Positions 19 to 14,684 of a stretch of 33,706 nucleotides of DNA are shown piece after piece. A program made the position numbers and the translations under genes. Source of the DNA: Fodinibius roseus (lineage in GTDB: Bacteria > Bacteroidota > Rhodothermia > Balneolales > Balneolaceae); assembly GCF_900129315.1 (NCBI RefSeq), contig NZ_FQUS01000029.1:1-33706 (forward strand). Direction: 5' to 3'. The stretch's first letter is position 1; each line of letters starts with the position of its first letter. A model generated the notes under the pieces. That model searched no databases. It was not told the origin of the DNA and saw only the letters and a list, made by a program, of their open reading frames with translations.

Positions 19-1158
19 TTAACCGCTAATATCGCTGATGGAAAGTGGCACTATATGCTCCGAAATGAGTGGCACCATATGACCGAAATAGCCACTATTA
101 TCATCTATAATTCCATATGCATGGATAATTAGCGTTAAGTTTGGATTATAAAGACCGGTTCTGATTATATCATTGATATGCTCATCTAAAAATGAATAAC
201 CCACTAATACTAGGGTATTTTGTGTTTCTGATAGGTTTTTAGAAAAGTAACGAAATAACTCGCTATACGGTAAATCTAATGAATAGGATTTCTTAGTCTG
301 TATAGGATAGATTACTAAAGACTCATAATTAAAGTCGTCCTTATCAAAGTTATCCGATACTTGAACTTCTTTTATTTTATAAAGGTCATCTAAATTATCA
401 GAGTATTGCCAAGAAATGCTTCCATGAAGTTTATATAGGTTAAGATAAGTACCAAGTTTTTTATTCTTACCAGTCTTATCTTGCTTAATGTATCTTTCAT
501 TATAGAAAGTATCCGGATCAAATTTTCTCAGATGGGTACCTCTAAAACCATTGTTGTAACTAACTCCAATTTTTTCACAAGAGTTTTCAAAGGCTAAATC
601 ATAATTTAGGGTGAATATATTCGGTCTATTTAGCTCCTCTTTACGGCTAATAATTTTATTTATAAATAATGTATGATCTTCCAATTTTGATTGATAATAA
701 TCCTTAGGAAATGGGATAAAACCCTCAATAAACTGTTCTAAAATTTTTTCAAAATAATCCTTAATCTCCTCTGCTATGTCTTCATCTTCCACATTATTTA
801 AATAGTATAGGTACTCTTGATTAATGCGATCAAATTTATCTTCTAATAAGTCATCACTATCTAAATATTTAATTAATTGTTTAATGTGATCTTTTGGATC
901 ATCAATTTCTCTTAGTTCATTTAAAACACCATTAAATGGATTTTCATCTGAATCATTTATCGTTTCACCACCTAAGCTAACTGATGTACCAGATCCGCAA
1001 AGAAAATTTAAATTTTCATTCAAATAGTACTTACCTAAGCGTTCAATAGGAATGCTCTCATTTTCCCTGAATACTTCATCTATATCAGATTCTTCATATA
1101 GCTCATCAGGAAATTCAATTTCCTCAGTTTCTCCATCAATAGTTACTTTATTTATCAT
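19..1158 (-). CDS. SIR2-like domain protein, probable NAD-consuming defence protein
   Basis: This 379-residue cytosolic protein has the hallmarks of the SIR2-like fold found in many anti-phage proteins. A glycine-rich nucleotide motif GSGTS lies at residues 55-59, TLNYD at 183-187, KLHGS at 243-247 and GYSFLDEHIND at 320-330. In related families (ThsA, DSR-type proteins) such domains bind and usually hydrolyse NAD+ when infection is sensed, killing or stalling the cell; that role is inferred here. There is no signal peptide or membrane segment, and no second effector or sensor domain is obvious, so the acidic first 45 residues or the C-terminus may do the sensing. It is the leftmost cargo gene, on the same strand as the type III restriction genes but 389 bases beyond res, so it probably has its own promoter. 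The stop lies 18 bases from the window edge and the gene is complete. Confidence 0.8.
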   Translation of the reverse strand: MINKVTIDGETEEIEFPDELYEESDIDEVFRENESIPIERLGKYYLNENLNFLCGSGTSVSLGGETINDSDENPFNGVLNELREIDDPKDHIKQLIKYLDSDDLLEDKFDRINQEYLYYLNNVEDEDIAEEIKDYFEKILEQFIEGFIPFPKDYYQSKLEDHTLFINKIISRKEELNRPNIFTLNYDLAFENSCEKIGVSYNNGFRGTHLRKFDPDTFYNERYIKQDKTGKNKKLGTYLNLYKLHGSISWQYSDNLDDLYKIKEVQVSDNFDKDDFNYESLVIYPIQTKKSYSLDLPYSELFRYFSKNLSETQNTLVLVGYSFLDEHINDIIRTGLYNPNLTLIIHAYGIIDDNSGYFGHMVPLISEHIVPLSISDISG

Positions 1159-1367
1159 CTTTAGGTGATCTTGCCATATAAATAGAATTATTTTACTTAT
1201 ACCAACGTAATAGATAATTATACTAAAATGTGAAAGAACTTGAAATTATTAATAAATAGTCTTTTTAGTTGTATGCAGAGTAGATAGGCGTTGTTATACC
1301 TATGTTTTACCATTATATCATAACTTTATGCATATTACAGACTTTATAGTTCCCCACCCAAACTTAG

Positions 1368-1450
1368 TATAAGTGGAATAATGTTTGCACCAATATTTGT
1401 ACCCAAACCAAAAAACCCTTGCAAACCAATGACTTATAGGGTTAGGGTAC
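1368..1450. other. Interlocking inverted repeats, possible pseudoknot RNA
   Basis: TATAAGT (1368-1374) and GTTTGCA (1383-1389) are complementary to TGCAAAC (1420-1426) and ACTTATA (1432-1438). GTACCC (1399-1404) and AACCCT (1414-1419), which lie in the loop of that hairpin, are complementary to GGGTAC (1445-1450) and AGGGTT (1438-1443) just downstream. The two helices interlock as in an H-type pseudoknot, or they compete. The same complementarity exists on both strands, so the transcribed strand is unknown. Function is not known. An untranslated leader, a small RNA, or a protein-binding site for SIR2-gene control are all possible. Confidence 0.35.
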
Positions 1451-1518
1451 GACTGATATTTTAAATTCGTGTCAAAGAATTTTAAATGAGTCTTTAGCTT
1501 TAATACCCTCAACAATAA

Positions 1519-1547
1519 AGCTAAATTTTTTAATAATTTAATTAGCT
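1519..1547 (-). terminator. Weak hairpin after res
   Basis: Immediately after the res stop codon, AGCTAATT and its near-complement AGCTAAATT can pair across a 12-base AT-rich loop. On the minus strand they are followed by TTTATTGTT. The stem has one bulge and few G-C pairs, so this is at best a weak intrinsic terminator for the mod-res transcript. Confidence 0.3.
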
Positions 1548-4184
1548 CTAAACACTGATTATCTTCTCAAACTCTTTCTCAAACTCCCGACGACGTTTAT
1601 TTTCATTATAGAAAGGTAATCCCCACAGTATATACTCTTTGTCTCTCCAGACTGGAATCAGATCGTAGTCATCTTTCAATTCCTCAAGAAACTCTTCCTT
1701 CCATTCATCATGCTCAAGAAGGTGATCTCCTTTAGGTTCAATGAATATCTGATAGTGTAAACTCTTTTCGGGATCTTCTTTTTTTAGAAACAATACAAAA
1801 TCTGGCTCAAAACCTTTCCCATCCTCAAAGTTATAAATTGTGAAATGACTCTCATTCCGCACTAAGTATATTTCATCAAAAGAGGGTTCTAATTTCTCAT
1901 ATACCTTATCTATATATTTGACGAATTTCTTTTCTTCTGATGTACCAAAGTTATCATTAAAAGCATACCATTCTTTTTCTCCTAAAGGTATCATTAAGTC
2001 TTCTGACTGTGGATCAGTCTGGGGGATTCCTTTATACCGATCATCCCCCTCATCTTTAGCAACACTGATTTCTTTATCAGAAATGACCTCACTTACAAGC
2101 TCACCCTGAAAATCCTTAGTTCCTTTATACTCAACAGTGCCTGACTTTATTTTGGATGCTAACTCATCAAGAACTTGAACAGTAATATCCAGCTTATCAG
2201 TTGGAGATAAGTTGTTTAACCGATCTTCTACTCCTGTTACCTCAACTTCAACTCTTGCCAAATAATCTTCTGAATTGATAAACTCAGTGTGCGAAGTTAA
2301 ATGGGGGAAGTAGTTTTTTAAATTACTAAAATAGTAGAACTGTAAGCGATTCAATGCTTTTTTAACAATTCGCTCTCCAAAATCAGCAATTTTATAATTC
2401 TGTCGAGCCGTTTTTAATTGTTTACCACTGGTGTCTTCATAAATGGTAGTGGTAACCATATACCCTGTTCTTAGCTTAACTTTATAAAGATGATTTTGAG
2501 CATGTTCATCGAGGCTTTTTATATCCTCTCTTTTATACTTCTTTTTCTGATTCGTATAGATATACCCTTTCTTATACGTAGGCGACTGTTTGAATGATGG
2601 TTTAAGGTTAAGGCTAACCTGATAATTTCGCTTAGCTTTTATTCCCACTTCTTCAAGGGCTGTATTGAGCTCATCAATATATCGGGGGTTGTGGGCACTG
2701 TGATAGTAAAGCTCCTCACATATTTTCAACTCATATTCTTCTTCATCTCCTACAATATCATACTTTCTCTGATATAAAGGTTGCTCTTCATTTAATTGAA
2801 AGGGACAGTATCTTGCTCCTCGTCCAATTAATTGAGCCTCTGACATGGTTGTTTTACCAGGTCTTCCACTCTTAGCATCACGGGTATTGTACAACCTTAC
2901 GATGTCAAACAGGTTCAATACATCCCATCCTTCATTCAGCTTGTCTACCGCAAAAATACCTCTATACTCATTGTCATCATCTTCTAATGTATTAACGGCA
3001 ATCTGCTTCTCTTCACTTTCGCTTTTACTGTTAATAGTGAGACATTTATCCTCTGAGAACTCTTCTCGTATTTCTTGTGCAAGGTTTTCCAGTGAAATTG
3101 ATTTATCCTCGAAATACTGAAAAGCTTCTTTAAGAATAGGGTCAAGGGATGGGTTATTTTTCACCTGTTGTAAATCGTTTCCGCTGAGATCTTTAATTTC
3201 TGTTTTAAACTTTTCATAGAAAGCCTCACTATCTTTTATAATACGAGATTTAAATAATATTACTGGCTTAATAAGTATCTGATGGTCTGCAAATACCTTT
3301 CGGCGGTATTGACTTAAAATTATTGCCTGAATAGCACGTTCAAACTTCTCTAAATCAGCTTGTAAGACTTTAACCTCTTTTGAGTAACCATCCTTTCTGA
3401 ATTCTTTCAAGGGGTAGTCCATTATAATCTTATCCTGATACTTCTTTTTTATATCAGGATTCCCTAAATCAATAGTAGCTGTAAATTCTAAAAGAATATT
3501 CTCATCATGGGAATTAAAGATCTTAAATACAGTCTGCTCCCAACTTGTGATATTCTCTTTTTCTGCTTCTAAAAGCTTATACCCCTTTTTCGTTTCCGCA
3601 TTAATATGATGTGCTTCGTCAGAGATTAATACTACCTTTTCATCCTCAAAATCTTCGTAAGTAACTGAATTTTCTCTCGGAGTATTTAACCGTGAATGTA
3701 ATCCCTGGATTGTTGTAAAAATAATATTTATATCATCTGGGTGTGATGACGAAAAATTATCAACTTCTCGAACTCGTACTCGCTTCTCCCCTATTTGTAT
3801 ATCATCGGCAAATAAATACTTATTAGAAGCATTGTTTAAGAAGTTTTCTCGGGTTTTGTTAATGATATTTGAACTATCTACAAAGAATAAAAAATTACGG
3901 TATCCTTCTTCATAAAGGAATAACAGTAATCCAGCCATTATCAGTGTCTTACCGCTCCCCGTCGCCATGTGGAATAAGTTCTGTAGGGGCTGTCCTTTAG
4001 GACGATTATCATACTTATTGAGGTAATATATATATCTCCCAAACGCTTCCTGCTGGTAAGGTCTTAGCTGAAACATTGGAGCTAAGTTATTGGGAATGTA
4101 GGACGGAACCTGTTTTTTATAAACATCCTCTCCTGCAAACTTTTTGTACGTCTGAAGATCTTTATATAACAACTCTTCTTCCAT
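1548..4184 (-). CDS. res: Type III restriction enzyme, Res subunit
   Basis: This 878-residue protein is the helicase/nuclease subunit of a type III restriction-modification system. It uses ATP to translocate or diffuse along DNA from unmethylated asymmetric sites and cuts when two complexes meet. Visible motifs, in order, are the Q-like RPYQQEA (41-47), Walker A TGSGKT (75-80), DEAH (189-192), TAT (235-237) and helicase motif VI (QLIGRGARY, in the second RecA domain). A C-terminal PD-(D/E)XK nuclease follows, with FEPD at 792-795 and EPKG at 816-819. Length is close to, or slightly under, known Res subunits (about 900-970). All catalytic residues are present, so it is probably active. It starts 2 bases after the mod stop, which means co-transcription and probably translational coupling with its methyltransferase. 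It acts in the cytoplasm together with Mod. Confidence 0.95.
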   Translation of the reverse strand: MEEELLYKDLQTYKKFAGEDVYKKQVPSYIPNNLAPMFQLRPYQQEAFGRYIYYLNKYDNRPKGQPLQNLFHMATGSGKTLIMAGLLLFLYEEGYRNFLFFVDSSNIINKTRENFLNNASNKYLFADDIQIGEKRVRVREVDNFSSSHPDDINIIFTTIQGLHSRLNTPRENSVTYEDFEDEKVVLISDEAHHINAETKKGYKLLEAEKENITSWEQTVFKIFNSHDENILLEFTATIDLGNPDIKKKYQDKIIMDYPLKEFRKDGYSKEVKVLQADLEKFERAIQAIILSQYRRKVFADHQILIKPVILFKSRIIKDSEAFYEKFKTEIKDLSGNDLQQVKNNPSLDPILKEAFQYFEDKSISLENLAQEIREEFSEDKCLTINSKSESEEKQIAVNTLEDDDNEYRGIFAVDKLNEGWDVLNLFDIVRLYNTRDAKSGRPGKTTMSEAQLIGRGARYCPFQLNEEQPLYQRKYDIVGDEEEYELKICEELYYHSAHNPRYIDELNTALEEVGIKAKRNYQVSLNLKPSFKQSPTYKKGYIYTNQKKKYKREDIKSLDEHAQNHLYKVKLRTGYMVTTTIYEDTSGKQLKTARQNYKIADFGERIVKKALNRLQFYYFSNLKNYFPHLTSHTEFINSEDYLARVEVEVTGVEDRLNNLSPTDKLDITVQVLDELASKIKSGTVEYKGTKDFQGELVSEVISDKEISVAKDEGDDRYKGIPQTDPQSEDLMIPLGEKEWYAFNDNFGTSEEKKFVKYIDKVYEKLEPSFDEIYLVRNESHFTIYNFEDGKGFEPDFVLFLKKEDPEKSLHYQIFIEPKGDHLLEHDEWKEEFLEELKDDYDLIPVWRDKEYILWGLPFYNENKRRREFEKEFEKIISV

Positions 4185-4186
4185 TC

Positions 4187-6118
4187 TTAGCCACTGATAT
4201 TATAAAACTGATGATTTAATTGCTTATCTGATTCGCTAACTTCAAAATCGTTATTATCCATTTCAGAATAATTCACATATAATTGATTCTTGTCTAAAAT
4301 CTCTAACAGTATTTTTTTCTGATCATCCAAACTCAGTTTTTGGAATTCATCAGCTCTATCATCAAAATCAGTTGTATCTATACGATAACTTAAAAATGCA
4401 TTTTCAGTCATTTTATTCCATATATTTAAAAGTTCCTCCTGAGTATCAGCATTCTGTATTAGATTAATAAATTGCTCATTAAATTTTTGCATCTCTGTAA
4501 AAATAAAGGACCCACCACCTTTCCAATCATAATCATCACTAATACCTGTTTCATCACCTTCAATAGCTTTATTAAGACGTTTTAAGGTCACGGATTCAAC
4601 ATAGTCCATTTGTTCACATATTATATATTGTCTTCCCATTTTATGCGCAACCGATCCTGTTGTGCCACTTCCACCAAAAAAATCTAATACTAAGTCCCCT
4701 ACATCAGTTGTAATCTTCAATACATCTGCTATTAAATGTGGTGACTTAGGATAACTAAATACCTTATCGTCAAATAATGATTTCAATTCATGAGTGCCAG
4801 TTTGCCCAGAATATTTGGATTTATCCCAAATTGTTTTAGGCTTTTCTCCTTCGTAGTCACTTTCCCTCTCTTTTATATAAATACTAAAGCTATCACCAGT
4901 TTTCTTCACTTCGATATACTTATCTTTCTTTTTTATAAGAGTCTCTGGACCCCATCTCCAACACCTTTCAATTCCATTAGTATCGATGGGTAATATCTCA
5001 ATATCATTATCTTTTTCTTTTTTAATCTTTAGTCTTTGTGAATCTGGATTGTAATAAAGTGGATAATATAAACCAGGTCTTTCCTCCTTTTTAGAATTAC
5101 TCCCACTTCTTCGAAAACCCCTTAATTTATACCTTCCGTATTCATCCTTATATCGAAATTCTGCCAGCTTTTCTTCTGACATTCCTAAAGTATTTAACTC
5201 TGCTCTATTAATATCTTTCGCATAAAAAAGCATGTTCTCATGCGCTGTAGGGAAAAAGTTATCATCCTGCCTTCCACCAGGATTATGGACAACTGCAGCA
5301 ACTCCCATACGGTTCTCTCTGCCATAAATCTCATCTAACATTACTCCAAGATAAAATAGTTCAGCATGATCTATAGAAACAGCAAAAATTCCATTTTCCC
5401 GCAATAAATGTTTTGCAACTTCAAGTCTATTTTTCATAAAAGTGAGCCAGGAAGAATGATTAAATGTATTATTATACGCAAAAGTATTAGCCGCACCTCT
5501 CGTATTATAAGGCGGATCTATATATATCAATTTTACTTTCCCTGTATAACTCTTTCTTAGGGAGTGCAAAGCCAACAAATTATTTCCCTTAATAACTAAA
5601 TTATTTTTTTCTGTAATCTCATTAACGTCCTGTTCTCCATCATTATCGAAGAACGTAAAATTTGTGAATACCTTCGGATCAAGTAATCTATCAATCTGAT
5701 CTGGAGCTAACGTTTCATTCCAAAATATTTCTTCTCTTTTAGCCTCTTCTTCCGTTTGCCCTCCTTCAAGCACACAATCCTTATATGCCCAAGCCAAAGT
5801 TACATCTTTTGAGTCAGATAAGTATTCATCACCATTGCTTAATCCAATCTTATTCTTAAAGACTGTATAACTATCGGGTAAAAATTGTTTGTTACTGATA
5901 AAGCGTTGAAATTTCTGTGTATCAAATACAAAAGTATCATTTACTTTTTGAAAGAAATGCTCTCTTAATCGATCATTACTTAGGAGTAAATTGAGTAACT
6001 TTTCATCTAACTTGAGTCCTAATTCAACAATTTTATTTTTTACTAACTTGTCGTCGATTACAAGGCGTTTATCCTCAGCCAGTACACGTTTTAATTCTTC
6101 AAGTAAATTTCTTTGCAT
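4187..6118 (-). CDS. mod: Type III DNA methyltransferase, Mod subunit
   Basis: Mod recognises the target sequence and methylates adenine N6, protecting host DNA; Res needs it for specificity. With the start chosen here the protein has 643 residues. DPPY (motif IV, residues 201-204) precedes FGGSG (motif I, S-adenosylmethionine binding, 481-485), the beta-class order typical of type III enzymes. The long stretch between them is the likely target-recognition domain. I chose the ATG at 6116-6118 (protein begins MQRNLLEEL). An in-frame start 23 codons earlier would overlap the radC end and lie inside the terminator hairpin at 6162-6184, and its extra residues look unlike a Mod N-terminus. No simple tandem repeat that could cause phase variation is visible in the gene. 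It forms an operon with res, 2 bases apart. Confidence 0.95.
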   Translation of the reverse strand: MQRNLLEELKRVLAEDKRLVIDDKLVKNKIVELGLKLDEKLLNLLLSNDRLREHFFQKVNDTFVFDTQKFQRFISNKQFLPDSYTVFKNKIGLSNGDEYLSDSKDVTLAWAYKDCVLEGGQTEEEAKREEIFWNETLAPDQIDRLLDPKVFTNFTFFDNDGEQDVNEITEKNNLVIKGNNLLALHSLRKSYTGKVKLIYIDPPYNTRGAANTFAYNNTFNHSSWLTFMKNRLEVAKHLLRENGIFAVSIDHAELFYLGVMLDEIYGRENRMGVAAVVHNPGGRQDDNFFPTAHENMLFYAKDINRAELNTLGMSEEKLAEFRYKDEYGRYKLRGFRRSGSNSKKEERPGLYYPLYYNPDSQRLKIKKEKDNDIEILPIDTNGIERCWRWGPETLIKKKDKYIEVKKTGDSFSIYIKERESDYEGEKPKTIWDKSKYSGQTGTHELKSLFDDKVFSYPKSPHLIADVLKITTDVGDLVLDFFGGSGTTGSVAHKMGRQYIICEQMDYVESVTLKRLNKAIEGDETGISDDYDWKGGGSFIFTEMQKFNEQFINLIQNADTQEELLNIWNKMTENAFLSYRIDTTDFDDRADEFQKLSLDDQKKILLEILDKNQLYVNYSEMDNNDFEVSESDKQLNHQFYNISG

Positions 6119-6150
6119 GGTTCTTATATGTAAATTATTGTACCAGATTT

Positions 6151-6184
6151 TGAAAGCAAAAGTAGGAAGGAGAACCCTTCCTAC
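6151..6184 (-). terminator. Intrinsic terminator of radC-like gene
   Basis: On the minus strand a perfect 9-bp stem GTAGGAAGG/CCTTCCTAC (6176-6184 with 6162-6170) closes a 5-base loop and is followed by TTTTGCTTT. The upstream arm contains the radC stop codon (TAG, 6181-6183). It separates radC from the mod-res operon and implies that mod has its own promoter between about 6119 and 6160. Confidence 0.85.
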
Positions 6185-6657
6185 CAAATGATTTCTTTTT
6201 CTCTAAATGAAATATAGTTATCCGCCGTGAGTATTACATGATCTTCCACCTCAATACCAAGCATCTTGCCTGATTTCTTAATGCGTTTGGTTAGTTTTTT
6301 ATCTGCGGATGATGCTTCCAAATTCCCGCTTGGATGATTGTGAGCTAGAATTATAGAAGTAGCATTAGCTAACAAAGCAACCTGAAATACGGAAGCCGGA
6401 TCAACAATCGTAGCTGTTGCTCCACCAGAGCTTATTTTACTCCAGCCTAGTAGTTTTTTGGCGTTATTTAGGAGCAATACTACGAACTCTTCTCTCAATT
6501 GCAGCTGATCTTTATCCCATATTTCACGAAGCACCTGTTCTGCTTGCTTGGGTGAGGTAATTTCTGGGAAAGATTGGGTGGGTTGGTTGTTTTTATATGA
6601 TAGTTTGACTTCTGCCAGCGTGGGTGACTTTTCAATAAGGGTATCGTTGTTATTCAT
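6181..6657 (-). CDS. RadC-like JAB/MPN domain protein of mobile elements
   Basis: This 158-residue protein is a JAB (MPN+) metallopeptidase-fold protein of the RadC family. The metal-binding motif HNHPSG (residues 106-111) with downstream Asp119 and an upstream Glu near 56-57 (REEF) is intact. It lacks the N-terminal helix-hairpin-helix region of chromosomal RadC (about 225 residues), which is typical of the short copies carried by integrated elements in Bacteroidota. The biochemical role of RadC is unsettled; links to DNA repair are historical, and in mobile elements a role in element biology or anti-defence is only a guess. It is bracketed by terminators at 6685-6708 and 6162-6184, so it is a one-gene transcript. 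Its stop codon lies inside its own terminator hairpin. Confidence 0.85.
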   Translation of the reverse strand: MNNNDTLIEKSPTLAEVKLSYKNNQPTQSFPEITSPKQAEQVLREIWDKDQLQLREEFVVLLLNNAKKLLGWSKISSGGATATIVDPASVFQVALLANATSIILAHNHPSGNLEASSADKKLTKRIKKSGKMLGIEVEDHVILTADNYISFREKEIIW

Positions 6658-6963: not shown

Positions 6964-7212
6964 TCAGACCTGAATGGAGAAATGGTAGTGGTAATATCCC
7001 TTGCCGTTTATGATATAGACGAGCTTCAGCTCCGGGGAGACCTTTACTTTTACCACTTCCAGCTCTTCCCCCACCATGTAGCTATCCACGGATTGAATAA
7101 CATGGACTTTAAATGGGCAGTGAAGCCGGATTAGCCCCCTGCTTTGGGTATGTACTAAGAGGCTATCTGAGCTTGTGTATTTGTTAATGTCATCGATAAG
7201 CTTACTTCCCAT
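6964..7212 (-). CDS. Small hypothetical protein (82 aa)
   Basis: Unrecognised protein of 82 residues from the ATG at 7210-7212; an in-frame GTG two codons earlier (7218) is an alternative start and would lie 2 bases from the DUF3871 stop. The sequence alternates hydrophobic and polar residues (for example VEVVKVKVSPELKLVYIING-like strands), suggesting a small beta-rich fold, and it ends in a YYHYHFSIQV tail. It has no signal peptide or membrane helix. Its tight spacing behind the DUF3871 gene indicates co-translation, so a joint role in the element's maintenance is plausible but unproven. Confidence 0.5.
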   Translation of the reverse strand: MGSKLIDDINKYTSSDSLLVHTQSRGLIRLHCPFKVHVIQSVDSYMVGEELEVVKVKVSPELKLVYIINGKGYYHYHFSIQV

Positions 7213-7220
7213 AGCCACAC

Positions 7221-8207
7221 TTAGTTGAGAAACCAGAAATCGGTATCCTCTTCCAGTGCCTTGGCAATATGAGCAGTAAATTGAGTGGCATTCACGCTCC
7301 TGTCCAGAAAGGTGTCTATGTAGGAGGATTTGTTAGCCCCTGTAAAGAGATTATACAGGTCCCACAAATTGATACTTCCATCAGACCTGCCCCCAAAGTG
7401 ATCATTCCTGTAATACTCTTTGGCTACCGTAGCTATCTGGGTATCATTGAGGGAAAGCTCCGGCAGTTGTTTTTTCTGCTTCGATGGCAGGTATTGGTAT
7501 AGCCTTGCTCTGCCAACTAGCTGTGCAAACTGCTCTTCGGTAAGCTCGAAGTTGTTATATTTTTCTAACTCCTTTATGCATGAATCTATATCAAATTCGG
7601 TAATAAGATTATAAATCCTGCCTTCAAGCTCCCTGGCACTGGTTACTTCAAGGGTTTCAGAAAATCCTTTGCCCCATATGCATAGGTTTGTACATATTTT
7701 ATTAATAAAACCAATACAGATTTTGAAATGCTCAAGGGACCCTTTTTTGCTGTTCATGTTGTCCAAATTGTAGGCTTTAACTCCGCCCACAGTAAGGGAA
7801 AGAGAATCTCCCTGTATCTGGTTGGTAATTGAGGGGATCTGGATTACAAAGGCAAGTCTTTCGTAGTACAGGGTCTTCTCATGTTCTTCCAGCTGATCAG
7901 CAGGCTTACCTTTGGCAGAGGGGATTCGCCCTTTTACAGGATGAGATATTCTGACATTTGGCTCCAGAATCGTTTCCCCCTCAAAGACATGGTGACATAT
8001 ACCCCTAGCCCTTTCAATGAACTCAGCGTGAGATATAAGCGGCTCATTGTCTTTGACAAACACAGGGATGATATGATTTTCGGCTATCTCCTCTAAACTT
8101 GATGAAATGGTGTTTGCTTCGATGAAAGGAGAATCATCATCCGGCAGTGGATTACCATCAGCTTCTGTAGGTTGAAGGTGGTGTTGATTTGATAATTCGA
8201 TGTCCAT
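7221..8207 (-). CDS. DUF3871 family protein
   Basis: This 328-residue protein matches, from memory of the family, DUF3871, found in integrated elements and plasmids of Bacteroidota. Typical stretches are the segment around HPVKGRIPSAKGKPADQL, the following EKTLYYERLAFVIQIPSI, and TVGGVKAYN. The C-terminal part has NLWDLYNLFTGANKSSYIDTF, similar to DUF932-type phage and plasmid proteins where such a segment follows the recombination or replication-associated core. Function is unknown. No catalytic motif, signal peptide or membrane helix is visible. It is the largest gene of a short operon (119-residue protein, DUF3871, two small proteins) that faces the repeat-rich non-coding block, so a DNA transaction role for the element is a fair guess. 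Confidence 0.75.
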   Translation of the reverse strand: MDIELSNQHHLQPTEADGNPLPDDDSPFIEANTISSSLEEIAENHIIPVFVKDNEPLISHAEFIERARGICHHVFEGETILEPNVRISHPVKGRIPSAKGKPADQLEEHEKTLYYERLAFVIQIPSITNQIQGDSLSLTVGGVKAYNLDNMNSKKGSLEHFKICIGFINKICTNLCIWGKGFSETLEVTSARELEGRIYNLITEFDIDSCIKELEKYNNFELTEEQFAQLVGRARLYQYLPSKQKKQLPELSLNDTQIATVAKEYYRNDHFGGRSDGSINLWDLYNLFTGANKSSYIDTFLDRSVNATQFTAHIAKALEEDTDFWFLN

Positions 8208-8291: not shown

Positions 8292-8651
8292 TTAGAAAGC
8301 GACTTTCTGCTGCCGATCTCCCTCAAAGACATGCTCTTCGGTGGATACGCTAACTGGCTCTGGATTATACTGCCAAGAGTGTTCCAGGATGATCTTTTCC
8401 CCTGTTTCTGGGATCTCGTATTCATAAGGGTCACAGGGAACTTTTTCGATAGCTCCAGGCATTTCTTTGCCAATTAACTTTTCACACATGGCATCGTCAA
8501 AGGTGGAAGCAATCATGGTCTTTCTTGCCGTTGCATAATGTCTTCCTGTTTCCTCAGATTGAACCATTTCTACCTCCCCCTGGAGCTTGAGCATGTTAAA
8601 GGGTTCTCCGTTTTCATTGGTAGCTTCTTGATATCCGACTATAGTGATCAT
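8292..8651 (-). CDS. Hypothetical protein (119 aa), first gene of the DUF3871 operon
   Basis: Unrecognised. The protein begins MITIVGYQEATNENGEPFNM, with a run of short predicted strands (GEPFNMLKLQGEVEMVQS) that recalls small single-strand-binding or OB-like accessory proteins. The similarity is by eye only. It contains a DPYEYEIPETGEKI stretch, has two cysteines and an acidic overall composition, and shows no signal peptide. It is the first gene after the repeat-rich block and its upstream region holds three hairpins and a nine-G tract, so it is the gene most likely to be controlled by that block. Confidence 0.6.
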   Translation of the reverse strand: MITIVGYQEATNENGEPFNMLKLQGEVEMVQSEETGRHYATARKTMIASTFDDAMCEKLIGKEMPGAIEKVPCDPYEYEIPETGEKIILEHSWQYNPEPVSVSTEEHVFEGDRQQKVAF

Positions 8652-8694
8652 TTTATTCTATGATTTAATTTATGTTTGTTATATATGATAAGGC

Positions 8695-8782
8695 GGGAAT
8701 GGTTTAAAATTCCCAAAACCAAGGCGGGGTTGGTTTGATGTGGTTCTCGCTTGCGAGAAATAAGGGGGGGGGTATTTTTTTT
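8695..8782. promoter_or_regulatory. Hairpin leader with nine-G and eight-T tracts
   Basis: Upstream of the 119-residue gene are three stem-loops: GGGAAT/ATTCCC (8695-8714, 8-base loop), CCAA-AACC with GGTTGG (about 8714-8733), and TTCTCGC-TT-GCGAGAA (8744-8759). The last is nearly a perfect palindrome that could equally be a protein operator. Beyond them are a run of nine G (8764-8772) and a run of eight T (8775-8782). Homopolymer G runs of this length are slippage-prone and often tune expression by phase variation; here that is an inference from length and position only. Confidence 0.45.
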
Positions 8783-8811
8783 AGAAAAAATTTTTTAAGA
8801 GGCAAACTGCC

Positions 8812-8935
8812 AAGTCTGGATAGGCAATACGCTATACGTCTTCATTATTTGCAGAATAAATCTTGTCCTATTCACTGCCAACTACATGCGGTTAAATTTT
8901 TGTTCTGTAAATAATAAAGATGGTTAGGGGGCTAA
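8812..8935 (+). repeat. Long degenerate repeat, unit A
   Basis: Unit A and unit B (9049-9172) align over about 120 bases. Shared blocks in order are GGATAGG, TA.GCTAT, AGAATAAA, ATTCACTGCC, CTACATG, GTTCTGTAAATAA, AATAAAG and GGGGGCTAA. The units are diverged but collinear, which points to constrained segments rather than recent duplication. Within unit A GGATAGG (8818-8824) can pair with CCTATTC, so a folded RNA is possible. The 3' portion (about 8903-8935) is the part also found in units C and D. Confidence 0.65.
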
Positions 8936-8966
8936 CGGTTTCTGCTTACCAACCAGTGATACCCAA

Positions 8967-9037
8967 GACTTGAAATCAAGTCATTAAATGAAAGTATGTA
9001 ATAACTATGGTATTCTCTATTAATGACGTGATTTCAA
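8967..9037. repeat. 18-base inverted repeat with nested palindrome
   Basis: TTGAAATCAAGTCATTAA (8970-8987) and TTAATGACGTGATTTCAA (9020-9037) are inverted copies with one mismatch, 32 bases apart. Overlapping the left arm is GACTTGA-AA-TCAAGTC (8967-8982), a perfect palindrome with two central bases; the right arm's single mismatch breaks the equivalent palindrome. This looks like a strong and a weak binding site for a dimeric regulator or initiator, or a cruciform. It sits between repeat units A and B. Confidence 0.6.
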
Positions 9038-9048
9038 AGGTAGACCAA

Positions 9049-9172
9049 AGGTCGGATAGGTAGTAAGCTATTAGACTTTATCATTTAGAGAATAAAAATA
9101 TAGCCATATTCACTGCCTGCTACATGGAGTTTTATCTGTTCTGTAAATAAATAAAGAGGTGAGGGGGGCTAA
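9049..9172 (+). repeat. Long degenerate repeat, unit B
   Basis: Second copy of the roughly 120-base unit, about 237 bases downstream of unit A in the same orientation. Its 3' core reads TTCTGTAAATAAATAAAG followed by AGGTGAGGGGGGCTAA (9139-9172), against a one-base-shorter version in unit A. See unit A for the shared blocks. Confidence 0.65.
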
Positions 9173-9190
9173 ATTTTACCGTTGTTACAA

Positions 9191-9266
9191 CGAATAGCGA
9201 TTACATCCAATATTATCATTCGCCGGGGGAATTTTCTCTACTGTAAATGAATAAGTGGAGGGGAAA
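9191..9266 (+). repeat. Partial repeat, unit C
   Basis: ACTGTAAATGAATAAGTGGA and the following GGGGAAA (about 9239-9266) match the 3' core of units A and B. Upstream CGAATAGCGATTACATCC (9191-9208) resembles the TTCACTGCC..CTACATG part in shortened form. The orientation is the same as A and B, with spacing of about 100 bases from B. Confidence 0.45.
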
Positions 9267-9340
9267 TCTCTCGAAAAATGTTTTAGTAAACGAAATAGTC
9301 CAAATGTTATATAATTAAAGGAATGCCCTTCTTTGTCATG

Positions 9341-9369
9341 TTTCCTCCCCCTTTATCATATTTACAGAT
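9341..9369 (-). repeat. Partial repeat, unit D (inverted)
   Basis: Read on the minus strand, ATCTGTAAATATGATAAAGG followed by GGGAGGAAA matches the 3' core of units A-C. This single inverted copy faces the other three, so the array is not a simple tandem duplication. Confidence 0.5.
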
Positions 9370-9583
9370 CAGATGGGGACCTCAAACTCTGCAAAATAAT
9401 CAAATTAGCATATACCATAGGGTTTCTACACCCTTTGGAATATACCCCCGGCTACTGGAAGTGTCATATTGTATAGATGCCCTTCAAAAATAGATGAGGA
9501 TTATTTCCCCTTGAAATCCACTTACGGTGGCAGGAACTTGCTCCCGCACTACGTGATAATTTTAAAATAAAAAGGCAGGAATA

Positions 9584-9711
9584 TTCCAGTCTAAAAATGG
9601 ACTAAGTATGGTTAATGTATAATATTTAAATAGGTATATAATTATATTATAATTACTAATAATAATAGCTAATAAAATAATATACTTATATAGTCCACTT
9701 TTGAACTGGAA
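9584..9711. other. AT-rich segment flanked by 21-base inverted repeats (candidate origin)
   Basis: Arms at 9584-9604 and 9691-9711 match in inverted orientation at 18 of 21 positions (cores CCAGT, AAAA and TGGACTA). Between them lie 86 bases composed almost only of A and T. The structure lies 19 bases past the stop of the winged-helix-like replication gene and faces the repeat units. An easily melted segment bounded by initiator-sized inverted repeats next to an SF3 helicase operon is what a satellite replication origin would look like. A miniature inverted-repeat element is the main alternative. Confidence 0.45.
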
Positions 9712-9730
9712 ATTGGTTACCTCAATTTTA

Positions 9731-10264
9731 TCACGTTATAGAAGGACCTGGGTCCTTGTTTTCTTCTATGTCTTCCGGGGGGGTAACCTTATGAGCATCC
9801 TCATAGGAAGAAGCTCCATGATAATCATACCTATAGCATAAATCTTTTTTATAGGTTTCAACATCTTTTTTTGGCAGGTCACCAAAATCATATATTTTTT
9901 CCAGCGAATTTTTAATGCACTCATAATCAATGGTATACCTGTTGAGCTGTCTAGTACCATCGCTCTCTTCTCTTTTGATTTGTAAATACCCGTCTTCTTC
10001 CAACTCTCCTAGATATTTGGCTACAGAGCCTTTACTCATCTGCGTAGCTTCTGTTATCATTGTATATTTTTGGGTAAAACTTTCCCCTTTTTTGCCATGC
10101 TTTCTAGCGGTGATGAGCATGTACTCATACAGGAATATTTTTTTGAGATTCCAATCGGGATGATATCCGCCTAACCTGTTAAACTGAATGGCGAATAAAT
10201 TAATTTTAGATTCTTTCTTCCCTGATTCCCCTTTCCACTCTTTGTAGCTTCCGTGATCATACAT
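9731..10264 (-). CDS. Winged-helix-like protein of the replication operon
   Basis: This 177-residue cytosolic protein has a central region (about residues 45-115) with the pattern of a winged-helix or MarR/replication-initiator type HTH. A helix with TARKHGKKGESF precedes ITEATQMSKGSVAKYLGELE, whose ATQMSKGSVAKYLGELEEDG segment is a classic recognition helix followed by a wing (YLQIKREE). The C-terminal 60 residues are polar and likely disordered. I chose the ATG at 10262-10264, which overlaps the preceding stop by 8 bases (ATGTATGA) and has AAGGTG about 7 bases upstream; an earlier in-frame ATG at 10297 would overlap by 41 bases. Last gene of the HTH-helicase operon. It could be a replication initiator or a regulator; the family is not recognised with certainty. 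Confidence 0.7.
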   Translation of the reverse strand: MYDHGSYKEWKGESGKKESKINLFAIQFNRLGGYHPDWNLKKIFLYEYMLITARKHGKKGESFTQKYTMITEATQMSKGSVAKYLGELEEDGYLQIKREESDGTRQLNRYTIDYECIKNSLEKIYDFGDLPKKDVETYKKDLCYRYDYHGASSYEDAHKVTPPEDIEENKDPGPSIT

Positions 10265-10541
10265 AAGTTTCACCTTGATTTTGTAGGTATTCGTCAATTT
10301 CTATTTTGTTAAAATAATTCGTGCCTCCAAGCTTTCGGGCTTTAATAACACCTTCGGCTTTTAACACACTTATTTGAGAGGTTGACAGGCTTAGGTACTC
10401 CGCCAATTCACCTGTACGCAGCCACCTCTTATTGAGTTGAATTTCATTTATTGCCGCTTTCAGTTTTGTTTCCAGGATGTCCATAAATTCCTGTTTGAAT
10501 TCATCAAGATCCTGTCTTGTCAGTAGTTCTGATTGTTTCAT
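10257..10541 (-). CDS. Helix-turn-helix (excisionase/MerR-type) DNA-binding protein
   Basis: This 94-residue protein has an N-terminal helical segment (about 1-40) followed by an HTH_17-type domain. WLRTGELAEYLSLSTSQISV, then KAEGVIKARKLGGTNYFNKIEIDEYL, is the excisionase/MerR winged helix with the usual terminal 'I-D-E-Y-L' helix. Such proteins bind bent DNA as excisionases or as regulators of element genes. It lies 60 bases downstream of the helicase gene and overlaps the next gene by 8 bases, so it is part of the same operon. It is a distant relative of the HTH protein at 12119-12403, which shares this layout. Confidence 0.8.
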   Translation of the reverse strand: MKQSELLTRQDLDEFKQEFMDILETKLKAAINEIQLNKRWLRTGELAEYLSLSTSQISVLKAEGVIKARKLGGTNYFNKIEIDEYLQNQGETYV

Positions 10542-10601: not shown

Positions 10602-12116
10602 CTAATTCTCTTCGTATAGATGTACGTCATAGTATACACCGTCATTTTTCCGCTTCCTTTGGATTCCATTTCTCATTAAGGCTTGGGAAAATTGTTTAAT
10701 ACCTAAACGGCTATAACCATAATCTAAGCAGTAATTTGAGTATTGTTCATGTAGCTCACTCGATTTTTTTGGATTCTGAAATTCATCTTGAAAATGATAA
10801 AGGAAGGAATTAACAGTATCTGATTCCCTACGGTAAGCTTGTAAAATACGGTCAGCACTTTCACATTTTGAGAATTCTTGTTGATTTTCTAACCGGACGA
10901 GTCCTTCTAAGACCCAGTTCATAATCCCGGGTAATTCATCTTCAGTAATTTTATCTGCTAAGCGAAGATCTACTTTTTCATCCGGTATATAGATCTCATA
11001 ATGTATAATGAGGAAGCGTCGGAAAAACCCCTCGGAGTAGTCTTTTGTATCGGGCAGCTGATTACAGTTGAAAGCCAGACGAGCATAATCCTCCATTTCA
11101 AAAGGTTTTCCGTATGGATATCTAGCACTAACCTTCTCACCTGATGCCAGTTTTTTGAATATATCAGAATTTACTTTTGTGGATATTTCGCCAGAGTAAT
11201 TCAGCAAAGCATCGGATAAATCACCAATGAAATAGAGTTTGCTATCTGAGAGAGATTCCAATGTATGGCTACATAAATTTTCTGATCCAAGCAAAGCGGA
11301 AGTGATATCCAGCTGGACACTTTTACCGTTTCTGCCAGTTCCATATAAGATAAGTGCTTTCTCGTGTTTGATGTCGGAAAATACAGACCCCAAAAACTCG
11401 GCTAATACTTTCTGTTTGTCCTTTTCAGGAATAACGTAATTGAGATATTCCTTGTACATCGGGCATTCTGCCTGCGGATCATATTCATATGGCAGGACAT
11501 ACCTGATGAAGTCGTCAGGGTTATGGTTCCTAAGCGTAAAATTTCCAGAACCGTCAAATTCCAGGGTGCCATTTTGAAAATTTAATAAGGTGCCTTCTGT
11601 TTTAGTGGGTTTTATATGAGCGGACTTTTTGAATTGCTCCAATCCTTGTCTTATGAAACTAGCGTCAAGTGCCATTGTTTTGGGAACGCCCAATAGATAG
11701 TAGCATTTTTCCAGAAACTTTTGGAAATCAGGTACTGGATATTTATCCCAGCATAAACCGTTAAACACAAAAACAGCACCGTTTCTAGCAGCTAGGGGGT
11801 ACGACAGTTCCTTAGCTTTTTCGAGTATTTCCCACGTTGATATTACTTTATAGTCTCTTTGGGTTGGATCTTTTCCATCCAGCAGATTTTCTATATCTGC
11901 CATCTTATTATTTATTTTTTCTTCATCAGCTTCCTCATTTTCTTTTTTCTTGTGTAGCTTGCTTAATCTTTCCTCTATTTTTTGGCTGTTTGGATGCAGT
12001 TTTAATTTAAAATTTATTTTTTCGAGGGATTCCAATATATCCTTTAGGACGTCCTCGGTTTTTTGTTGTGTAACTTGTGTAGGGTTTTCCGAACCTTTTT
12101 TGTAATCAGTAAACAT
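10602..12116 (-). CDS. P4/D5-type SF3 helicase, replication protein of the element
   Basis: This 504-residue protein belongs to the phage/plasmid D5-P4 alpha group of replication helicases. After a charged coiled-coil N-terminus (about 1-80) comes a D5_N-like region (about 95-240), then Walker A GTGRNGKS at 259-266 and the SF3 core with LLNYSGEIST and the sensor-1-like RLAFNCNQLP. A C-terminal winged-helix-like tail ends the protein. No archaeo-eukaryotic primase or TOPRIM domain is visible at the N-terminus. If it is a full replicase it must recruit a primase, unlike P4 alpha. It starts 2 bases after the upstream HTH gene. The likely substrate is the repeat-rich block at 8.65-9.73 kb as origin. 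Confidence 0.85.
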   Translation of the reverse strand: MFTDYKKGSENPTQVTQQKTEDVLKDILESLEKINFKLKLHPNSQKIEERLSKLHKKKENEEADEEKINNKMADIENLLDGKDPTQRDYKVISTWEILEKAKELSYPLAARNGAVFVFNGLCWDKYPVPDFQKFLEKCYYLLGVPKTMALDASFIRQGLEQFKKSAHIKPTKTEGTLLNFQNGTLEFDGSGNFTLRNHNPDDFIRYVLPYEYDPQAECPMYKEYLNYVIPEKDKQKVLAEFLGSVFSDIKHEKALILYGTGRNGKSVQLDITSALLGSENLCSHTLESLSDSKLYFIGDLSDALLNYSGEISTKVNSDIFKKLASGEKVSARYPYGKPFEMEDYARLAFNCNQLPDTKDYSEGFFRRFLIIHYEIYIPDEKVDLRLADKITEDELPGIMNWVLEGLVRLENQQEFSKCESADRILQAYRRESDTVNSFLYHFQDEFQNPKKSSELHEQYSNYCLDYGYSRLGIKQFSQALMRNGIQRKRKNDGVYYDVHLYEEN

Positions 12117-13367: not shown

Positions 13368-14684
13368 CTAACTGAATAACTTGTTCATGCTTTTATCTAA
13401 CAGCTCTTCGTCAAAAGTTTTAAGGTATTCCTCCGTTACTTTTAAATCAGAATGTCCTAATGCCTTGCTAATGGCATATAAATCCATTCCTTTTTTCAGG
13501 GCATAGTGAGCAAAGGAATGGCGGCTCACGTGAAAGGATATATTAGCCTGTATTCCCGCTTTTCCTGCAATGATTTTTAGGCGTTTGTTTGCCTGGACAT
13601 TCTTACTGCTGATTTTTCTACGCAATTCCATCGGATCTTCATAATGCTCATCCAGGATAGGGAAAATATACTCATTTGCATGCGATTGTGCATATTGGTG
13701 AATCATAGGCATTAACAGGTCCATTGGGTCAACGGCTTTTTGTAATGTATCCTTAGGATCCCTTCTGGAGAGTATGATATACTGACCACAATTTGTAACA
13801 TAGTGCAACAACAGCTGATACATTGGAGGGAGCTGATTAATGCTTTTTTGTTTCCCGGTCTTATTCATTGCATAAACCAGCCGCCCATCAATGAGGTTTC
13901 CCCATGTCAGGCAGCATAAATCTCCAAAGCGAATACCCGCATTATAAAATGAATACATAAAATAATTACGCGTATGCCACACCTTAGAACCTTTTTCCAA
14001 ATTCAGATTTTCAATAGCCGAAATCTGGTCAAATGATAATTTTATTTTATTACTAGTTCTCTTTGGTTCCACCTTATCAACCCTGGAAAAGGGATCTTGT
14101 TTTATTTCTTCATTTTTGAAGAGCCAGTCTGTCATTCCTTTCAACCGCTGTATTTTTTTGCGGACCGTGTTATTAGCATTCCCCACTTCGGTAAGAAGAT
14201 AATCTTGAAAATCCTCAATCCACTGGGAGTCCAGGTTGTTAAGTTGATCGGGCTTTTTACGGTCTTTGATGAAGGATTTTAAATTACCAAGCACTACTTT
14301 AAAATGCCTGCGAGCCCAATACCTGTCTTCATCCTGTAGATATGTTCGGTATATTTCTCCCTGGTTAATAATAGAACGGTTATCCTTATCCTCAGAAATA
14401 GCGTCAAGCAGGGTATCTTTACTTAGGTTGCCATTTATTTCTAAATCATCTCTAACAGTTTCAACTTCACGATATAACCGCCGGAGCTTGATATTTATAT
14501 GTTTATATCGACGGTGTGACCCCTTGACCTCTTGCTCCTTATTATCCCAGTCTTTTTGCTTGACCCAAAAACCAGTACTCCTGTAACTGGACTTTCTATT
14601 TTCTGTGATCCGTAAATAGATAGGAATAGTGCCATCATCTCGCTGTCGTCTTTTGAGAAGAGTAAAGTTTATTGTTAGTCCCAT
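13368..14684 (-). CDS. int: Tyrosine-type site-specific integrase
   Basis: This 438-residue tyrosine recombinase inserts and excises the element by strand exchange between attP and attB. It has an N-terminal arm-binding domain (about 1-95, beginning MGLTINFTLLKRRQRDDGTI), a core-binding SAM-like domain (about 105-200) and a catalytic domain. The catalytic residues are Arg252 (GIRFGDL), His385 and Arg388 (HVSRH), His411 (LGHSD) and the nucleophile Tyr420 (TEEYLKTF). All are present, so it should be active. Length and layout match the phage-integrase-SAM-like integrases of Bacteroidota elements. It is the right-most gene of the element and is transcribed inward, as in P4-type elements whose att site lies just upstream of int. 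Confidence 0.95.
   Translation of the reverse strand: MGLTINFTLLKRRQRDDGTIPIYLRITENRKSSYRSTGFWVKQKDWDNKEQEVKGSHRRYKHINIKLRRLYREVETVRDDLEINGNLSKDTLLDAISEDKDNRSIINQGEIYRTYLQDEDRYWARRHFKVVLGNLKSFIKDRKKPDQLNNLDSQWIEDFQDYLLTEVGNANNTVRKKIQRLKGMTDWLFKNEEIKQDPFSRVDKVEPKRTSNKIKLSFDQISAIENLNLEKGSKVWHTRNYFMYSFYNAGIRFGDLCCLTWGNLIDGRLVYAMNKTGKQKSINQLPPMYQLLLHYVTNCGQYIILSRRDPKDTLQKAVDPMDLLMPMIHQYAQSHANEYIFPILDEHYEDPMELRRKISSKNVQANKRLKIIAGKAGIQANISFHVSRHSFAHYALKKGMDLYAISKALGHSDLKVTEEYLKTFDEELLDKSMNKLFS

Follow-up and report, generated by a model that had tools for sequence, protein, structure and literature searches.

Gene neighborhood of the gap

The window analyzed here, the whole stretch of 33,706 nucleotides of Fodinibius roseus DNA, contains a repeat-rich non-coding gap at positions 8652-9730. 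The gap extends exactly from the start of the p119 gene (8651) to the stop of the HTH36 gene (9731), as had been annotated, and the element genes around it are all encoded on the minus strand. On one side is an operon that begins with p119 (8292-8651) and continues with genes for a DUF3871 protein (7221-8207), a small conserved protein, p84 (6964-7218), and a RadC-like JAB protein (6181-6657). Beyond the operon are type III restriction-modification genes and a SIR2 gene; positions 19-6187 of the window read as defense cargo (a SIR2-type protein, a type III restriction enzyme and a methyltransferase). Integrative elements that carry defense cargo are frequent in bacteria.

On the other side of the gap is HTH36 (9731-10297), a protein of the winged-helix type that resembles phage replication initiators and DnaD-like loaders. 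It is followed by HTHa (10257-10541), an HTH_17/excisionase-type protein, an SF3-type helicase (10602-12116) and a tyrosine recombinase (integrase; 13368-14684). The helicase has DUF5906 and D5_N domains and matches the C-terminus of P4-family primases (TIGR01613) with 148.7 bits against a cut-off of 108.7. The operon of p119, DUF3871, p84 and RadC would be part of an integrative element with a replication module and defense cargo.

In several relatives, the DUF3871 gene adjoins a gene for a RecA-like ATPase. The only copy tested, from locus L003, matched AAA_24 at E 2e-15 and gave tblastn matches to phage proteins annotated as RecA-like. We take the ATPase beside DUF3871 to be of the Sak4 type, and in this adjacency the relatives are like phage recombination operons that have a RecA-like (Sak4-type) ATPase. 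The operon in the window differs from these in being part of an element with an integrase, a type III restriction-modification system and a SIR2 gene, and no RecA-like gene was seen in it. DUF3871 is mentioned in PMC10434189.

The p119 protein had no protein family match, and a search of the PDB with the p119 sequence alignment gave three chance-level matches only (E 0.75-0.87). A structural model made from a two-sequence alignment (mean pLDDT 75) has the order b1-b2-b3, helix, b4-b5, which is the predicted strand order of an OB-like fold. The Foldseek list for this model consists mostly of SSB and PriB proteins, all of them weak matches (lowest E 0.032, with none at E ≤0.001); among the chains aligned, PrgE was the best (VIA; Z 4.7, rmsd 4.3, 74 residues). 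From this predicted fold, it is plausible that p119 is SSB-like.

Distribution of related loci

We found p119 in 7 of 92 genomes of the family, one of them with two copies, in 8 of 128 genomes of the order (one extra genome), and in 12 of 395 genomes spread over the phylum (7 further genomes). The resulting set of p119 loci numbered 17, including the window and L002. There was no relative of DUF3871 or p119 in a collection of viral contigs, and p119 had no match among plasmids or phages at E 1e-3. The genera of the eight named DUF3871 relatives presumably belong to the Bacteroidota.

The closest relative of the window, L027, has the order HTHa-HTH36-gap-p119 and a homologous block in the gap. 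Two stretches of its gap align with that of the window: 87 nt beside p119 (76% identity, E 3.4e-11) and 39 nt around the short core AATTATATAACA (85%, E 9e-6).

Several loci have arrangements of their own. The genome of F. roseus has a second element (L030, G000 contig 16) with p119, DUF3871, p84 and RadC; its upstream block is different from that in the window and has its own pair of C-runs, 29 nt apart. In L080-L082, DUF3871 and p119-RadC are separated by approximately 6-9 kb with other genes between them, as if cargo had entered the operon. A circular record of 15.5 kb from Bacteroides finegoldii (L088, NZ_OY725960.1) contains DUF3871, two integrases and an Eco57I-type gene, and possibly represents an element of this kind in its excised, circular form.

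Repeat units and inverted boxes in the gap

Two repeat units, A (8812-8935) and B (9049-9172), both on the minus strand, are located in the half of the gap near p119. Comparison of the region with itself by blastn aligned them over 122 nt with 76% identity (E 1.6e-15), and a MAFFT alignment displayed shared blocks, including ATGTAG and GGCAGTGAATA, with drifted sequence between them. The duplication that the first-pass annotation had recognized is certain. Its core, TCTGTAAATAAATAAAG, is letter-perfect in B and only there, as A is short of one A; the partial copies D and C have one and two mismatches, respectively, to the first 11 letters of the core.

Each unit also has a second, inverted copy of the box that had been missed, at a distance of 59 nt from the first in both. 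In unit A, box A-left (8904-8914, plus strand; TCTGTAAATAA) is followed by a G-run and has A-right (8845-8855, minus strand; TCTGCAAATAA) as its inverted partner. In unit B, the corresponding boxes are B-left (9140-9150, plus strand; also TCTGTAAATAA and followed by a G-run) and B-right (9081-9091, minus strand; TCTCTAAATGA). Box C (9240-9250, plus strand; ACTGTAAATGA) precedes GGGG, and box D (9358-9368, minus strand; TCTGTAAATAT) precedes GGGGG. In all, the block has six copies of TCTGTAAATAA at ≤2 mismatches; at ≤1 mismatch, it holds four of the window's five sites. A reading of the six boxes as three inverted pairs (A, B and D/C, the last around AATTATATAACA) is possible, but the pattern is suggestive only. 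Sixteen-codon ATG frames start at the right-hand box of each unit, A and B, or immediately beyond it (within 8790-9091; MKTYSVLPIQTWQFAS and MIKSNSLLPIRPLVYL); these are possibly leader peptides or due to chance.

When the word was fixed beforehand, the six copies of TCTGTAAATAA exceeded the shuffled sequences (mean 1.12, maximum 5 in 300 shuffles), although the boxes of A and B do not count as independent, the units being copies of each other. When the word was left free, the best 11-mer was another, AT-rich word that occurred 10 times; shuffles averaged 7.4, and 3 of 60 reached 10. That a short AT-rich word is repeated here is therefore unremarkable in itself.

We searched the 92 family genomes with a model of the unit (R1), taking the best 33 or fewer candidates per genome. 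Among the matches listed, there were only A, B and one weak match (E 0.02; G081, L090), and the long A/B units appear to be private to this element as far as searched. Comparison of A and B gave no compensatory change, with 0 of 17 predicted pairs altered on both sides in these two sequences. Given these two results, neither an iteron family nor an RNA fold of the units is supported. Folding itself was inconsistent: A folded better than shuffled sequences (z -2.4 on the minus strand and -3.7 on the plus strand), B did not (0.17 and 0.34), and there was no covariation, so a folded RNA made by the A/B units was rejected. An invertible promoter was also rejected, since by direct reading the inverted boxes appear too diverged to be recombination sites.

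A strand-specific C-run motif upstream of the operon

The part of the gap nearest to p119 has a different kind of feature. On the sense strand of the operon there is a run of nine C's (8764-8772, minus strand; G9 on the plus strand), and related loci are enriched for such runs in the same place. Of the 17 p119 loci, 16 had sense-strand runs of five or more C's (C5+) in the 400 nt before p119, the exception being L083. Such runs were also present in six of six further loci that gave no p119 match and for which the operon's first gene served as the anchor, giving 22 of 23 loci in total. These counts leave out L004, a near copy of L003, and L005, which has no C5+ run within 2500 nt; with L005 counted, the number is 22 of 24. 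Runs of five or more G's (G5+) occurred in the same 400 nt in 2 of the 23 loci. The density of C5+ runs upstream was 4.13 per kb, compared to 0.25 and 0.16 in the other non-coding and the coding DNA of these loci, respectively; G5+ runs were not enriched (0.22 per kb upstream, 0.22 in other non-coding DNA and 0.29 in coding DNA). Because the loci are related, and L085 and L086 are near copies, the C-run counts do not represent independent events.

Spacing between the runs was also preferred. A distance of 26-31 nt between two runs of four or more C's was seen in 16 of 28 loci, and every other 6-nt bin contained at most six; the C-runs of L108 are not independent in this count because that locus was found by the motif model described below. 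Four DUF3871 elements fetched later (L129-L132) all had sense-strand C5+ runs and no G5+ run in the 400 nt before the chosen start. Where an AAA_24-DUF3871 pair is split from p119 (L133-L135), a C5 run preceded it in only one of three loci. The ORF start used as anchor is uncertain in L001, L007, L130 and L132, and L130 and L132 have C-runs elsewhere as well. An A/T tract, AAAAAATTTTTT, is at 8785-8796 in the window, and by raw count such a tract occurs ≤450 nt upstream in 14 of 23 loci.

Closest to the gene is a conserved leader motif of approximately 55 nt (8686-8740, minus strand), about 35-90 nt before the p119 start and in the same place in relatives. It has the layout ACCC(C), about 12 nt, a CTTGGG-like block, a short loop, and CCCGCC; in the aligned leaders this reads ACCCCC, about 12 nt, (G)TCTTGGGG, a short loop, and CCCCGCC. 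We built two models of it, R2 from 11 sequences and R3 from 13 sequences including that of G016, and searched with the best 66 or fewer candidates per genome for R2 and the best 14 or fewer for R3. Among the matches listed for R2 in the 92 genomes, ranks 1-6 were training leaders (E 1.5e-7 to 1.1e-5). Rank 7 (E 0.012) was in G016, outside the training set, and directly upstream of an ORF that matches DUF3871 (E 6.8e-20). Rank 8 (G019 contig 1, E 0.022) was between two ORFs unlike element genes. The DUF3871 frame in G016, found by way of the leader model, is short (L098:292-933, minus strand, contig 11; 213 aa, profile positions 6-168 of 318) and has a divergent HTH_17 gene beside it. A p119 search of the G016 genome found nothing.

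In leave-one-out searches, the true place was ranked first in the locus of its own for 8 of the 11 leaders (E 1.2e-5 to 0.09), with failures for L028, L087 and L006. Among the matches listed for R3 in the 395 genomes, eight had E ≤0.05, and because all of these were training leaders, R3 adds specificity and no new case. In 21 further loci, R3 gave E ≤1 in only two, L108 and L107, the latter a chance match. Since C-runs are found in most of the remaining 19, they alone are widespread, and the complete motif has a narrow distribution. Overall, related elements in the phylum keep a strand-specific C-run motif immediately before the operon.

Predicted RNA folding of the leader motif

On the minus strand, positions 8670-8800 folded better than 200 of 200 shuffled sequences (z -3.46). 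The 5-pair hairpin of the leader did not have significant covariation, as 56 of 500 and 103 of 500 shuffles scored as high. Changes on both sides were present in two of the five pairs, a level reached by 272 and 306 of 500 shuffles, and some rows of the alignment seem to be one base off register. In RNAalifold, the first C-run paired weakly with the G-run (-1.0 kcal/mol), by which two mutually exclusive hairpins would be possible. No Rfam family matched the window at the gathering score. A structured RNA, which the first-pass annotation had left open, is thus possible only for the part of the gap next to the operon and not for the A/B units, in which no pair changed on both sides.

Scans for ordinary signals gave little. 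A promoter matching the Bacteroidetes-type consensus was not found beside the motif, the nearest -7-like site being at -391, and scans for generic sigma-70 promoters and terminators found 10 and 2 sites compared to 5.7 and 1.1 expected.

Palindrome, conserved core and AT-rich dyad

The palindromes that had been reported for the gap are present. One is imperfect, with 27-nt arms that are 81% identical, and is located between A and B (8970-9037). Its RNA folding gave z -2.0, with 11 of 200 shuffles equally good, and its one match in Rfam, to MIR8675, was weak (25.1 bits against 90.8). The other is an AT-rich imperfect dyad (9584-9711) directly 3' of HTH36, a candidate origin or terminator. A similar AT-rich dyad is in the same place in L027. 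Inverted-repeat scores 3' of HTH36 were 58 in the window (maximum of 40 shuffles, 43) and 72 in L027 (maximum of 40 shuffles, 42).

The core AATTATATAACA (9305-9316, minus strand) is between boxes D and C. Upstream of p119, its 12 letters recur in L027 and L029 and 10 of them in L028, all three loci being from the same genus; in L027 the core has diverged box-like sequences on both sides. By itself it is unspecific, being present in 47 of 92 genomes. The view that fixed blocks in the gap are under selection is supported, mainly by blocks other than those first proposed, namely the C-run motif (8686-8772) and this core.

A proposed control region for the recombination operon

The motif is in the place expected of a promoter or leader, tracks the operon and not the helicase, and is kept where no HTH36, SF3 or p119 was found. 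For these reasons we read the block as the region that controls a phage-type recombination operon by way of a promoter or leader, with boxes specific to this element further upstream, and put the probability of this reading at about one half. The operon-proximal stretch of about 120 nt (8686-8796) would be the promoter/leader device, read either at the RNA level or as a directional operator. Farther from the operon, boxes A, B and C/D, together with the core AATTATATAACA, would be element-specific operator sites; because the A/B units are not shared, we infer the role of A and B from position only. Local duplication may have multiplied a module of C-run plus box, which would strengthen the same control or allow it to loop.

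The reader of the device would be a host factor, or the device may be purely cis-acting, as RNA. A search by phmmer with three HTH_17-type queries for a common element-coded regulator found relatives in at least 8 of 28 loci. This is a lower bound, because an ORF in L008 that is alike by eye was missed; a ninth match, in L081, was to the p119 frame. We found no element protein shared by all loci, which makes a host factor or a cis-acting device likelier than one dedicated element protein.

The alternative that we take most seriously, while considering it unlikely, is that the excised element uses this block as its replication origin, with HTH36 and the SF3 helicase acting on the AT-rich dyad and the boxes serving as initiator sites. 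The best matches of HTH36 are to phage replication-initiation and DnaD-like families (E 4.1e-8 and 4e-7). The dyads here and in L027 scored above all shuffles, and the boxes beside the initiator-like HTH36 can be read as inverted pairs, one of them around the conserved AT-rich core, although their word is unremarkable in the free-word test. Against an origin, the block has neither the DnaA-box consensus, TTWTNCACA, nor the type I iteron of P4, GGTGAACAG, at ≤1 mismatch (the window has 6 iteron matches compared to 4.87 expected). The inverted repeat 3' of HTH36 in L032 (51, maximum of shuffles 39) reads as an ordinary terminator, and in L028 no inverted repeat stands out there (24, maximum 47). 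Elements that gave no HTH36 or SF3 match still have the C-run motif, and none of 23 related loci (15 + 8) has an SF3 relative by tblastn at E 1e-3. Satellite P4 with its ori and crr is similar in combining an integrase, a P4-family helicase and a repeat-rich non-coding block; it differs in having the iterons, and the conserved motif here does not track the helicase. For the repeats, a P4 crr or iteron-type origin is not supported, as P4 iterons are lacking in the block and the unit has only one weak match elsewhere in the family genomes as far as searched; the supposed link between the block and the helicase is weak. The AT-rich dyad next to HTH36 may well be the origin, in which case origin and operator may share the gap.

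It is rather improbable that A, B, C and D are neutral, decaying duplications without function and that only the p119 promoter/leader is constrained. Such decay would fit a unit that is unmatched elsewhere except for one weak match, the free-word test and the A/B comparison without compensatory pairs. It fits less well with the box-like flanks of AATTATATAACA in L027, the recurrence of the core in L028 and L029, and the 59-nt spacing of the arms in both A and B, the last of these between units that are mutual copies.

Two further explanations are special cases of the control-region reading, and we consider both very unlikely. In the first, the operon-proximal motif would be an RNA operator by which an SSB-like p119 represses its own mRNA, as T4 gp32, an mRNA-specific autogenous repressor (PMC535899), does. 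The OB-like model of p119 and its weak SSB/PriB matches, with PrgE as the best chain, agree with this, and T4 gene 32 likewise has a leader motif before the first gene, although the gene here is only possibly SSB-like. The hairpin covariation was not significant. The leader is also present where p119 was not found: before RecA-like/DUF3871 operons in L003 and L006, and before DUF3871 in G016, which lowers the case for autoregulation by p119. In the second, the C-rich sense strand would be a Rho-type loading region, and Rho would keep the operon silent as long as no antiterminator is at work. Over the last 400 nt, the sense strand has more C than G in 19 of 28 loci (86 compared to 56 in the window), and the failure to find an element protein common to all loci is compatible with this; in the other 9 loci C is not above G, and the 26-31 nt spacing and the CTTGGG block are unexpected for a loose C-rich region.

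Returning to the control-region reading, a wider form of it is speculative, and we give it a low probability. The strand-specific device of two C-runs 26-31 nt apart with a CTTGGG-like core would be common to the recombination operons of integrative elements in the phylum and read by a host factor, and in this element it would have been multiplied into a dyad array. A literature search, judged from its search summaries, gave nothing on a C-run leader motif, and we know of no account of how this group of elements switches on its recombination and replication genes. If the wider form is true, the element would sense the state of its host before launching excision, replication or recombination. 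The conserved cis-motif is in any case a handle with which such operons can be found and their control tested, and it has pointed to one additional DUF3871 gene.
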